Of a DNA stretch of 38,751 nucleotides, positions 25,310 to 29,171 are shown piece after piece. The stretch lies in the NCBI GenBank assembly GCA_024278975.1, contig JAJRSD010000073.1, forward strand, positions 1 to 38,751. Reading direction: 5' to 3'. The notes beneath the pieces are model-generated. The model worked only from the letters and a program-made list of their open reading frames with translations, was not told the DNA's origin and searched no databases. This DNA comes from Bacteroidota bacterium (GTDB lineage Bacteria > Bacteroidota > Bacteroidia > Bacteroidales > Prolixibacteraceae). The stretch's first letter is position 1. Each line of letters opens with the position of its first letter. Made by a program: the position numbers and the translations under genes.

Positions 25310-26650
25310 TTAGTTTTTATATCTCAACCATTTAATCAACTCTTTAATATTCACCTTTTTACCGTACATTAAAAGTCCGACCCGATAAATTTTGGCAGCC
25401 GCGAAAATTGCTCCCACAGTAGTAATAATCAATAAAAACATCGAGAGTAAAAGCTCCCATGTTGGAATTCCGTAAGGTACACGAGCCAGCATTGCAACCG
25501 GTGAGGTAAACGGAATTATTGAAGCCCAAAAAGCAACCGGGCCTTCAGGATTTCTTGCAATGGGAAACAGCAGCATTATAGATAAAATAAGAGGGAAAGT
25601 AACCGGCAAAACCATTTGCTGCGAATCTTCCTCGCTGTCAACCGCTGCACCAACTGCGCCTAAAAGCGAACTGTACAATAGATAACCGGCTAAGAAATAG
25701 AATACAAATGCGAACAAAATAAGTGGTAAATTCAGATTACCAATCAACTCCATAACTTCCATTACTTTGTTTTGGTCGGCGGCTTGTGCCATTGCCGGGT
25801 TCATTTGTTGCTGGGTTTCCATTATACTTTGTCCCATTTGTTGTGCAGTTTCGGGTGTAAAAACTCCCTGAACTACAACCAGCGTAACAATGCCCAAAAC
25901 AATCCAAATCGCTACTTGTGTAAGTCCTACCAATGCAGTGCCAATTATTTTACCTGCCATTAATTCGCTTGGTTTTACCGACGAAATTATCACCTCGATA
26001 ATACGGCTTTTTTTCTCTTCCATGACACTGCGCATAACCATTGCACCGTACATAAACACGAAAAAGTAGATAATAAATCCCATGGCATAACTTGCAATAA
26101 ATGCAATCGTCGATGAGCTTTTTGTAGTTTCACCGGTTTCCGAAATTTTTAAAGTATTTAAACTAATTCGTGTTTTCGTATTTGCAAGTTGCTTTTCCAA
26201 ATCAGGAATACCCGACTCTTCCACTACTTTTTTACGTTTGTCGTTTTCGATAAACCTACTTAGTTTTCGTTCAATCTGCTCGGTTAATTCAATAGGTAAC
26301 TGTTTGTCGGAAACTAACTGGGCAGAATTTGTTGTATAAATATTTTTGGGAATGTACAAAAGTGCGTAATAATCACTGTTTTTTAAACCTTTTTTTAATT
26401 CTGCATATTCTTCGTTTTGGATAAAATTATATTTTGTATAACCTTCTTCTCCAAACTCGCCAAGGAACATGGTCGATTCATCGAAAACAGCTATTGTACG
26501 CTCTTTTTTGTCGTCGTTAACCGATAGGAATACTATCAATGCAAACATTCCGGCAAACAAAAATGGTACCAATAAAGTGAGTATTATAAACGATTTTTTC
26601 TTTACCCGTTTCAGATATTCGTTCTTTAAAATTAGAATTGTATTGTTCAT
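25310..26650 (-). CDS. ABC-2 type exporter permease
   Basis: This 446-residue membrane protein has one helix near residues 20-45 (LLVPFLFAGMFALIVFLSV). A large extracytoplasmic part follows to about 180, then five or six helices clustered at 185-430. MEEKKSRIIEVIISSVKPSELMAGKIIG is the coupling region typical of NatB/YhaP-type ABC-2 permeases. It exports an unknown substrate, possibly Na+ or a drug-like or peptide molecule. The start overlaps the ATPase stop by 4 nt (ATGA), so the two make one complex. The function depends on the ATPase, whose reading frame is broken in this sequence. Confidence 0.85.
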   Translation of the reverse strand: MNNTILILKNEYLKRVKKKSFIILTLLVPFLFAGMFALIVFLSVNDDKKERTIAVFDESTMFLGEFGEEGYTKYNFIQNEEYAELKKGLKNSDYYALLYIPKNIYTTNSAQLVSDKQLPIELTEQIERKLSRFIENDKRKKVVEESGIPDLEKQLANTKTRISLNTLKISETGETTKSSSTIAFIASYAMGFIIYFFVFMYGAMVMRSVMEEKKSRIIEVIISSVKPSELMAGKIIGTALVGLTQVAIWIVLGIVTLVVVQGVFTPETAQQMGQSIMETQQQMNPAMAQAADQNKVMEVMELIGNLNLPLILFAFVFYFLAGYLLYSSLLGAVGAAVDSEEDSQQMVLPVTFPLILSIMLLFPIARNPEGPVAFWASIIPFTSPVAMLARVPYGIPTWELLLSMFLLIITTVGAIFAAAKIYRVGLLMYGKKVNIKELIKWLRYKN

Positions 26651-27569
26651 ATTTTGTTTGATTTTTCAACAGCTTTAATAAATACATCGTTCATACTCGG
26701 AATTATCTCTTCGAAAGCAATTATTTTTGAAACCGGAATTATACTTTGTAGCAACTCGTTATTCGAGTTTCCGTTGAGAAACTGAACTTTCAGGTCATTC
26801 TCTTTTTCTGATTCGGAGTGTTCGATAATTTTAAATTGATTTCCCAAAGCCTGATTTATTTTTTCGAATTCGCCCCGGTATTTAATTTTGTAGATATTAG
26901 ATTTGTATTTATTACGAATTTCGTCGGTTGCTCCATCTTCAATTTTTACCGATTTATTTATAAGCGCAATATTGTCGCAAAGCTCTTCTACTGAACCCAT
27001 GTTATGAGTTGAAAAAATTACGGTTGCGCCATCGTCGCGAAGTTTTAGAATCTCCTGTTTTATCAGCTCTGTGTTTATTGGGTCGAAACCGCTAAAAGGT
27101 TCATCGAAAATAAGCAGTTCGGGTTTGTGAACAATGGTTGTAACAAACTGAACTTTTTGCTGCATCCCTTTCGATAACTCTTCAACTTTTTTATTCCACC
27201 ACGGCATTATTTCAAACTTCTCGAACCACTGTTTCAGGTTCCTAATAGCTTCCTGCCTGCTCAATCCTTTTAACTGTGCAAGGTAAATTGCCTGTTCGCC
27301 AATCTTCATTTTTTATAAAGCCCACGTTCTTCAGGAAGGTATCCAATTTTTGTAATATCCTTGCGGGTAAGTTTTTTGCCATTCAGAAATATTTCACCAC
27401 GGTCGGGTGCAGTAATCTGATTTATAATTCTGATTAATGTGGTTTTGCCGGCTCCGTTTGGTCCCAGCAACCCGAAAATACTTTGCTCTTTTACCGAAAT
27501 ACTTACATCGGTAAGTGCTTGCGTTGTGGCAAAAACCTTGTCTATATTTTTCGCTTCAAATAATTCCAT
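26647..27569 (-). CDS. ABC transporter ATP-binding subunit, interrupted by a frameshift
   Basis: Two frames together make one normal ATPase of about 307 residues. 27569-27306 (87 residues) holds Walker A GPNGAGKTT and ends GLYKK-stop. 27309-26647 (220 residues) begins MKIGEQAIYLAQLKGLS and holds signature LSKGMQQKVQ, Walker B LLIFDEPFSG and the H-loop STHN. The joint is a run of six A before TGA (TATAAAAAATGAAG on the coding strand). One more A restores the conserved GLYKKMKIGEQ. The second frame's ATG overlaps the first frame's TGA. The candidate explanations are a sequencing or assembly error, a recent mutation, or slippage. No other damage is visible in either part, which favours an error or slippage over old decay. 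Confidence 0.85.
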
Positions 27570-27666
27570 TCAAATTGTTTTGTTAATGGGTAATAATTAC
27601 TTCGTGCAAATTACAAGTTTCGTTTTAATTCGTTACGAAAAAAAACATAAAAGTTATTTTTGAAAT

Positions 27667-27787
27667 ATTTGCCCTGACTTTATTACGAGGAAATCTCTAA
27701 ACTGGGTTGACTTTGTTACAAGATTGTTGCCAAACTGGGTTGACTTTGTTACAAAATGTTTGTATATTTGCCCTGACTTTGTTACAA
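27667..27787 (+). repeat. Four 22-bp repeats at exact 33-bp spacing
   Basis: Copies start at 27667, 27700, 27733 and 27766, each 33 bp apart, with 11-bp non-conserved spacers. All share TGACTTTrTTACrA in the second half. The first half alternates: copies 1 and 4 begin ATTTGCCC, copies 2 and 3 begin AACTGGGT. The array fills the space before the DUF4143 ATPase (ATG 27801). Apart from the array, the gap 27570-27800 is plain AT-rich sequence shared with the divergent ABC operon. Confidence 0.88.
27740..27770 (+). promoter_or_regulatory. Promoter embedded in the repeat array
   Basis: TTG of repeat 3 (27740-27742), a 20-nt spacer and TATATTTG (27763-27770) at the start of repeat 4 fit the Bacteroidota promoter pattern. 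The ATG of the ATPase is 30 nt beyond. The repeat unit thus carries both promoter boxes, and repeat-binding would control expression. Confidence 0.55.
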
Positions 27788-27800
27788 AAAGACATTACAA

Positions 27801-29171
27801 ATGAGCTTTAATCGACATATTACAAGAAGTTTACACGTATGGAAAGAAAGTGTTTTCAGGAAGCCACTTGTGCTGAGAGGTGCGAGGCAGGTTGGAAAGA
27901 CAACTTTAATACAGCAATTTGCGTCAAAATATAAATTCAGCATACTCTTAAATTTAGAAAAAAAAGCTGACAGGTTTTATTTTGAAGAGTACGATGATGT
28001 AAAAACAATTGTGGAAATGCTTTTTATTGCCAAGAATATTGCATTTAAATCTCTTGGTGAAACGCTGCTGTTTATTGATGAAATTCAGGAATCGCCAAAA
28101 GCTATTGGGTTGTTGCGTTATTTTTATGAAGAACTGCCTGATTTGCACATAATTTCTGCGGGTTCGCTTTTGGAGTTTGCAATGAAAAAAGTAAAAAGCT
28201 TTCCTGTTGGGAGAGTTGAGTTTTTATATCTGTACCCGTTAAATTTTGGTGAATACTTGGAAGCAATTGAGCACAAAGTCGCAGTTGAGCAATTTCATAA
28301 AGTTCCGATAAACCCTGCTGCCCATCAAACATTGATGAAATTATTTAATAATTATGCCATTTCGGGTGGAATGCCGGAGGTAATAAAAGTATATATGCAA
28401 AACAGAAGCATGGCAGATTTACCCCGTATTTACGAGAGTATTTGGGGTACTTACAAAAATGATGTGGAGAAATATACAACCAATGATACCGAAAGAAAGG
28501 TAATTAAACACATTATAAATACCGCTCCATTTTATATTGACCAACGTATCAAATTTCAAAATTTTGGCAACTCAAATTACAGGTCGAGGGAAGTGGGTGA
28601 GTCGATGCGGAATCTTGATGATGCAAAAATAATGCGATTAATTTATCCGACTACCGATATTGAAATTCCTGCAAAACCTGATTTAAGAAAATCGCCCCGA
28701 ATGCAATTTTTAGATACGGGAATTCTAAATCACTCGTTAGGAATTCAGGGACAAATGCTTGGAATTGAAGATTTAAGCAGAGCTTTTAAAGGAGCAATTA
28801 TTCCACACTTAATTACGCAGGAACTAATTTCGCTAAACATATTTAATGATAAAAAACCCAATTTTTGGGTGAGGGATAAAAAGCAGGCATCATCGGAAGT
28901 CGATTTGGTTTTTACTTATAAAGATAAACTTATTCCAATTGAGATAAAGTCGGGAAGTTCGGGTAGCTTAAAGTCACTTCATCAGTTTATTGAGCAAGCC
29001 AGCCATCCGTTTGCTGTGCGAATTTATGCAGGCGAATTTCGTATTGAGAAAAATATTACACCAAAAGGAACTCCTTATTTATTAATGAATTTACCGTACT
29101 ATCTGGGACTAAAAATACCAGAATATATTGAGTATTTTATTGAAAATAACTCACTTCATATTAAGGCGTAA
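27801..29171 (+). CDS. AAA ATPase with DUF4143 / nuclease-like C-terminus
   Basis: This 456-residue cytoplasmic protein has an N-terminal P-loop ATPase with Walker A RGARQVGKTT (Lys33) and Walker B LLFIDEIQE (Asp93, Glu94), then ISAGSLLEFA as sensor. The middle part (ISGGMPEVIKVY) belongs to the DUF4143 group. The C-terminus has EVDLVFTYKDKLIPIEIKSG, a D-x12-E-x-K arrangement (Asp368, Glu381, Lys383) like PD-(D/E)xK nucleases. Such proteins are very common in Bacteroidota and archaea, occur in many lineage-specific copies, and have no settled role. It is a monocistronic cassette next to lon, preceded by a phased repeat array. A self-regulated, mobile or toxin-like role is only an inference. 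Confidence 0.85.
   Translation: MSFNRHITRSLHVWKESVFRKPLVLRGARQVGKTTLIQQFASKYKFSILLNLEKKADRFYFEEYDDVKTIVEMLFIAKNIAFKSLGETLLFIDEIQESPKAIGLLRYFYEELPDLHIISAGSLLEFAMKKVKSFPVGRVEFLYLYPLNFGEYLEAIEHKVAVEQFHKVPINPAAHQTLMKLFNNYAISGGMPEVIKVYMQNRSMADLPRIYESIWGTYKNDVEKYTTNDTERKVIKHIINTAPFYIDQRIKFQNFGNSNYRSREVGESMRNLDDAKIMRLIYPTTDIEIPAKPDLRKSPRMQFLDTGILNHSLGIQGQMLGIEDLSRAFKGAIIPHLITQELISLNIFNDKKPNFWVRDKKQASSEVDLVFTYKDKLIPIEIKSGSSGSLKSLHQFIEQASHPFAVRIYAGEFRIEKNITPKGTPYLLMNLPYYLGLKIPEYIEYFIENNSLHIKA

Follow-up and report, generated by a model that had tools for sequence, protein, structure and literature searches.

The window, the whole 38,751-nucleotide stretch of DNA analysed here, carries an ATPase gene directly preceded by four copies of a 22-bp direct repeat (Table 1). 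The first-pass annotation had placed these copies exactly 33 bp apart in the order a-b-b-a, and both the spacing and the order (ATTTGCCC, AACTGGGT, AACTGGGT, ATTTGCCC) were recovered. The second half, described as nearly invariant, is TGACTTTGTTACAA in copies 2-4 and differs at two positions in copy 1. The claimed promoter boxes were likewise located, TTG inside copy 3 and TATATTTG running into copy 4, with 20 bp between them. Following the consensus for Bacteroidota promoters, TTG-N20-TATATTTG is taken to be the promoter of the window ATPase. The lag-33 repeat score of the upstream region exceeds that of all 100 dinucleotide shuffles. The 14-mer of the repeat is matched exactly three times in the window, always inside the array, and 16 times with up to three mismatches (shuffled mean 9.41). 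The word TGACTTTNTTAC occurs seven times in the 4.65-Mb genome, four of them within the array, and the pattern read backward occurs ten times; the single word is thus not rare, while the phased set is. An iteron-controlled replicon was considered, and the genes neighbouring the cassette were found to encode a Lon protease and an ABC transporter. The upstream gene for the ABC transporter ATPase (26647-27569, minus strand) consists of two frames overlapping near 27306-27309, and both halves match ABC_tran. This split represents either a frameshift or an assembly error.

Table 1. Features of the repeat array and of the ATPase gene in the window.
Feature	Coordinates	Strand	Basis and remarks
Repeat copy 1	27667..27688	+	Form a, ATTTGCCCTGACTTTATTACGA; most divergent copy; 33-bp phase conserved in homologous loci
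Repeat copy 2	27700..27721	+	Form b, AACTGGGTTGACTTTGTTACAA; sequence and homologous loci
Repeat copy 3	27733..27754	+	Form b; holds the TTG of the putative -33 box
Repeat copy 4	27766..27787	+	Form a; overlaps the putative -7 box and the expected transcription start
Putative -33 box, TTG	27740..27742	+	Sequence; in copy 3
Putative -7 box, TATATTTG	27763..27770	+	Sequence; extends into copy 4
AAA_14 and DUF4143 ATPase gene, 456 aa	27801..29171	+	Full-length match to PADLOC PDC-S01, 624 bits
P-loop GARQVGKTT, aa 27-35	27879..27905	+	Eight of nine columns invariant, A28 nearly so (79-sequence alignment)
Predicted winged-helix region, aa 225-300	28473..28700	+	Recognition helix at about aa 262-274, assigned from predicted secondary structure
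PD-(D/E)XK-like nuclease region, aa 325-432	28773..29096	+	D368, E381 and K383 invariant (79-sequence alignment)

The ATPase matches the PADLOC model PDLC04788 over residues 1-448 of 456 (2.7e-188), and both Pfam AAA_14 and DUF4143 score above their cut-offs. Across 79 aligned sequences, the residues G27, R29-T35, D93, E94, D368, E381 and K383 are invariant. The last three are presumably the motif residues of a PD-(D/E)XK fold. The protein is predicted to combine an AAA+ domain, a winged helix and a nuclease. It can be assigned the domain order of STAND-like ATPases of the PABY2304, SSO1545 and CED-4 type, in which helical and winged-helix domains follow an AAA+ core. PDC-S01 is described as an ATPase fused to PD-(D/E)XK, and for most candidates of this kind validation is still pending (PMC12988326). 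It is listed as a phage-defence candidate. The window ATPase matches the PDC-S01 model over its whole length, and PDC-S01 models are also matched by ten of ten further family proteins, whose genes have 22-, 23-, 32- or 33-bp repeats. Operator arrays, autoregulation and phage-borne copies, as described below, do not appear in the accessible parts of the published accounts (PMC12988326; PMC13356809). The source genome contains 47 DUF4143 matches in 4.65 Mb, some of them broken or truncated. This is an unusual load: 60 Bacteroidota genomes drawn evenly from the phylum hold 0-16 each, and 59 other genomes of the same order 0-29 each.

Conservation of the array was examined at 81 loci, comprising the window and the best 80 of 145 relatives (best-segment identity of at least 61%). 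Two homolog records are titled as non-Bacteroidota, namely Desulfocapsa and Chlorobiota. The weight matrix was built from the homologs' upstream regions and is hence not independent of these loci. Two or more matrix matches (range 2-6) were detected within 400 bp upstream of the gene in 79 of the 81 loci; below two matches are L100, which is cut at the 5′ end, and L046, the Desulfocapsa record with one match. Retention of the spacing in relatives had been named by the first-pass annotation as a test, and it held: 77 of the 81 loci have a copy spacing of 32 or 33 bp before the same ATPase gene, and two more have one of 66 bp. Among 172 spacings, 154 measure 33 bp, 13 measure 32 bp, two 66 bp and one 31 bp, and two have other values. 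Repeat columns carry about 1.3 bits of information, spacer columns about 0.26. Elsewhere in 551 kb, 23 matrix matches were found, some of which represent the palindromic part of the array on the other strand. Records titled Flavobacteriaceae, Pedobacter, Chitinophaga, Cyclobacteriaceae and Bacteroidales all keep word and phase, and their spacers have diverged.

Many locus pairs have array and gene as a common block between different neighbours; in some pairs the neighbours are common as well. The block of L064 and L068 is 97.7% identical over 1682 bp. The gene is patchy within the genus of the source organism: among 36 further genomes, two have an 86% ortholog, together with its array. A 33-bp array with a drifted word was found for homologs that are 39-45% identical and have an NSxYRSRE-like helix (L402, L403, L404, L405, L406 and L407). 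A weak array remnant was seen in L400 (49% identical), and L408 (39%, different helix) has an unrelated 33-bp word.

Arrays precede other members of the family as well. In the source genome, 45 upstream regions of family matches were scored, including the window and keeping fragments and doubtful members. Sixteen regions contain a 32- or 33-bp repeat scoring above all 100 shuffles and two a 22-bp repeat; four further regions reach that level at lags of 14, 14, 20 and 31. By eye, the words of the paralogous arrays are mostly different, with parts common to L013 and L022 and to L030 and L032. A wider set comprised 182 complete family genes from the source, phylum and order genomes, the window excluded. 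A repeat score of at least 14 was obtained for 68 of these genes versus none of 66 clean control genes; earlier control counts of 2/60 and 12/118 had taken in divergent array-sharing genes and family members. The periods of the 68 arrays are 32 bp (36 arrays), 33 bp (11), 23 bp (8), 22 bp (2) and other lags (11). They track subfamily roughly: long ATPases mostly have 33 bp, short ones 32 bp, and two other subfamilies 22 and 23 bp. At 50% identity the 182 genes formed 70 clusters, and an array is present in 33 of these. A scored direct-repeat array is absent from 114 of the 182 genes. In L134, L136, L139, L141, L164 and L165, direct repeats are absent and a single inverted repeat over the promoter was noticed by eye. 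Such inverted repeats of array-less family genes may represent a version of the operator that has one site.

A few bacterial sites lie away from the gene. The exact pair TTTGTTACA-N24-TTTGTTACA occurs at six sites in five of 395 Bacteroidota genomes, and its backward control at none. Two of the six sites are in the window, two precede family ATPases (60% and 54% identical), one is a solo array (G045) and one is without the rest of the word. Solo two-copy arrays of the window type, without an adjacent ATPase, were also noticed in L051 (about 6040), L109 (about 5504) and L209 (about 5945). In L051 and L109 they constitute a second array, which follows the start of the gene at 2.5-3 kb. The solo array of L109 is preceded, by eye, by what seem to be the first codons of another family member. 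In the Pedobacter loci L064 and L068 (2650-4500 in both), the cassette appears by eye to be flanked by tRNA-3′-like direct repeats, a position at tRNA 3′ ends that it shares with integration hot spots. A tRNA-Met lies just upstream of the cassette in L101 (2659-2733) and L116 (2714-2788). Insertion at tRNA genes was rejected as a general rule, since ARAGORN found a tRNA in 13 of 80 loci and only some of these are close to the cassette.

Two-copy arrays of the same type were found in viral contigs. A degenerate two-copy pattern of the window type with 33-bp spacing was scanned against IMG/VR (2.9 million contigs) and matched 42 viral contigs. Of these, 41 were kept; L335, whose repeat resembles an unrelated repeat within coding sequence, was left out. 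Both copies score above 10 on the host matrix in 40 of the 41 arrays. The dinucleotide CC at repeat positions 5-6, which the scan did not require, is present in at least one copy in 36/41 and in both copies in 31/41. A control spacing of 38 bp, applied to the window type only, matched no IMG/VR contig. Other operators of the family were found in 8 contigs (22-bp type), 25 contigs (23-bp GCCAA type) and 3 contigs (23-bp TGCACAA type). Two of the six types, the 32-bp type of L021/L176 and the 33-bp type of L123, matched no IMG/VR contig. From base composition, with 58 Gb assumed, at most 0.1 contigs are expected by chance for any operator type. The records L383 and L385 each hold both 23-bp operator types, which abut in L385.

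The viral arrays lie outside reading frames of at least 100 aa in 76 of 77 cases. Single linkage of the flanks placed the first 74 arrays in 19 contexts, the 77 contigs being partly interrelated. No family ATPase was detected by tblastn in the fetched viral loci. Among 37 full viral records, which may be fragments, DUF4143 gave no profile match and AAA_14 gave 11 weak matches, none above the cut-off. In 31 of 79 host loci the last copy contains a TAnnTTTG box, which is absent from all copies in the 41 phage arrays. The less strict form TAnnTTT[AG] occurs in 46/79 host loci versus 7/41 phage arrays. Ten other viral contigs (scanned with two short patterns), 9 phage records and 60 plasmid records do carry family ATPases, whose identity to the window protein is about 40% at most.

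Proteins encoded near the viral arrays matched a PHROG in 15 of 20 cases scanned. They include the terminase large subunit (L319, L323, L340, L364 and, 4.6 kb away, L382), a portal protein (L332), an endolysin or amidase (L304, L311), a tail terminator (L313), an integrase (L322) and Erf (L312). The nearest named relatives of the L340 terminase are those of Flavobacterium psychrophilum phages (56% identity). For the terminase of L382, a Leptolyngbya phage (40%) is followed by Cellulophaga phages (32%), and for that of L319 the nearest named relative is a Halorubrum phage (34%). The L332 portal is 25% identical to that of Nonlabens phages, with 26 of 30 records coming from Streptomyces, and the nearest named relative of the L316 protein belongs to a Rhodobacteraceae phage (35%). 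The nearest named relatives thus mix Bacteroidota phages with others, and the hosts of the array-bearing contigs are not settled by these sequences. One search of named phages returned no match. A second returned 43 records with short weak matches (E of at least 0.9), of which the longest was examined and contains no array, and a further search gave two weak matches. Three cultured phages (five loci) were also scanned, with one low-complexity match as the outcome.

The recognition helix was considered as sole reader of the word and was rejected in this role. In sliding windows over 72 array-bearing proteins (1098 pairs), the best partial correlations of about 0.17 were obtained near residues 193-205 and 358-370, with 0.02-0.05 at the helix. 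A comparison of protein pairs with the same and with different words (23 versus 438 pairs) revealed no special protein region. Proteins of the short subfamily keep the recognition helix even when their words differ. Since the helix was not singled out and is conserved across different words, the reading domain is uncertain. In the long subfamily, the helix region is the most conserved part among 17 orthologs (0.83 versus 0.65 for the whole protein) and is diverged among 11 paralogs (0.19 versus 0.30). This contrast can also reflect the age of the subfamily.

The first-pass annotation had proposed an operator array. The proposal gains from the conserved 32/33-bp spacing and from the differently worded sister arrays; binding and self-repression are what we infer. 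Repeats at random places unrelated to these ATPases had been named as evidence against it. Repeats away from the ATPases do exist in part, as two-copy arrays in viral contigs and a few solo bacterial sites, and they add a phage side that the first-pass annotation had not foreseen. The ATPase-less arrays keep word and phasing, and the 38-bp control yielded nothing, so that their occurrence is not random. Conserved phased sites overlap the gene's own promoter, as predicted by consensus, which is the arrangement of an autoregulatory operator. Arrays without the gene and without the promoter box, the arrangement of a phage decoy, are found in phage genomes, whose records may be fragments. Taken together, a self-operator of the following ATPase gene with decoy copies in phages is regarded as fairly probable. 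Taken on its own, the bacterial array is quite probably a self-operator. This identity accounts best for the linkage of word and gene, the drift of the word with the protein, the position on the promoter and the helical phasing. The decoy step alone appears evenly balanced between true and false.

The copies would be occupied by several ATPase molecules, all on the same helical face. As the -33 and -7 boxes fall under the last two copies, binding there would shut the promoter, and the potentially harmful ATPase-nuclease would be kept at a low level. Many PDC-S01/DUF4143 members own a differently worded array of similar helical phasing, so that paralogs within one genome need not cross-regulate. 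During infection, the two-copy phage arrays would bind and tie up the ATPase as operator decoys. It is presupposed that the ATPase defends against phage and that array-bearing phages meet hosts with such ATPases. In the broadest form, Bacteroidota phages would counter a very large family of candidate defence ATPases by DNA alone, with correctly phased, promoterless two-copy versions of the private operators, in some cases of two kinds next to each other, soaking up or silencing the ATPase. This proposal is tentative and is rated just short of an even balance. If it is true, an arms race could be read from the match between host operator words and phage decoy words, and this match would predict which phages can overcome which ATPase. 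The private phased operators provide a first testable model for the regulation of PDC-S01. The phage arrays are independent sequence evidence of the importance of the family to phages and point to counter-defence by a DNA site, not a protein. As the words match, the partner of each phage array is predictable, and role and target of PDC-S01 become testable.

The phage arrays could also be targets, that is, phage-needed elements recognised and cut or blocked by an ATPase that occupies the same word at its own promoter. The invariant nuclease-like residues D368, E381 and K383, the PADLOC listing as a defence candidate and the match of host-promoter and phage arrays in word and phasing are consistent with this; it is nevertheless considered unlikely. 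The arrays lie near endolysin genes in some phages and near portal, terminase, integrase or tail genes in others, which does not suggest one needed element, and four differently worded operators occur among the phage arrays. Conserved motif columns between variable spacers indicate that phages keep the sites rather than lose them. Together with the absent promoter box, the scattered positions and the stacking of operators that differ in word, this selection on motif columns makes decoys more likely than targets. A separate DNA-binding protein might read the arrays and regulate the ATPase genes in place of the ATPase itself, and the covariation test, which did not single out the ATPase recognition helix, speaks for it. 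It would demand many dedicated regulators, given 18 arrays (periods of 22, 32 and 33) in 45 regions with mostly different words. Furthermore, array and ATPase are a common block in many pairs with differing neighbours, some pairs sharing them, and related words are kept in homologs as these drift. Such a regulator is considered improbable.

A cis site for transfer or integration of the cassette, with no regulatory role, would suit the common block of array and gene amid different neighbours (L064/L068) and the solo arrays. It is held to be very improbable: no matrix match was found within about 1 kb after the gene (81 loci, where sequence was covered), the copies lie on the promoter boxes, and the block of L064 and L068 ends at the tRNA-3′-like repeats, not at the array. 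Slippage generates direct repeats, and a plain functionless tandem duplication could arise in this way. With word and phase conserved across distant loci and the spacers diverged, this origin was rejected and is given almost no weight. A CRISPR array was dismissed in view of 22-bp repeats, 11-bp spacers, two to six copies and a fixed position before one gene. Transposon ends were dismissed too, as no inverted or second terminal copy was found within about 1 kb past the gene (81 loci, where sequence was covered).

In autoregulatory repeat operators and iteron-type arrays, a gene product binds direct repeats next to its own gene. The array has in common with them that phased direct repeats cover the promoter of the likely reader's gene, with periods of about two or three helical turns. 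It differs in the many paralogs per genome with mostly different words and in the matching arrays of viral contigs. Phage counter-defence includes sponge proteins and DNA-mimic proteins. The proposed decoy would similarly be a phage component that ties up a defence factor, but it would be a bare DNA site. RptR, a regulator of defence islands, is a separate small repressor that acts on defence genes by promoter-bound repression, and the term decoy is absent from the paper that describes it (PMC12255303). Promoter-bound repression of a defence gene would also apply here, whereas the candidate reader is the effector-like ATPase itself and not a separate repressor. In open-licence literature on operator decoys, titration and autoregulation of defence genes, no description of these arrays appears in the titles or first abstract lines listed.

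Beside the phage arrays, other phased repeats with periods of 20, 32 and 33 bp were noticed in the intergenic regions of L353 (1400-1450), L382 (100-200), L362 (8080-8150) and L354 (11840-11900). Further phased repeats adjoin the viral array in L367. Partnerless repeats of this kind may be decoys for other ATPases. Eight partnerless repeat units from phages were compared with the 182 family upstream regions, and the best matches had 4-7 mismatches. Among the eight, the L383 unit alone resembled a family word.
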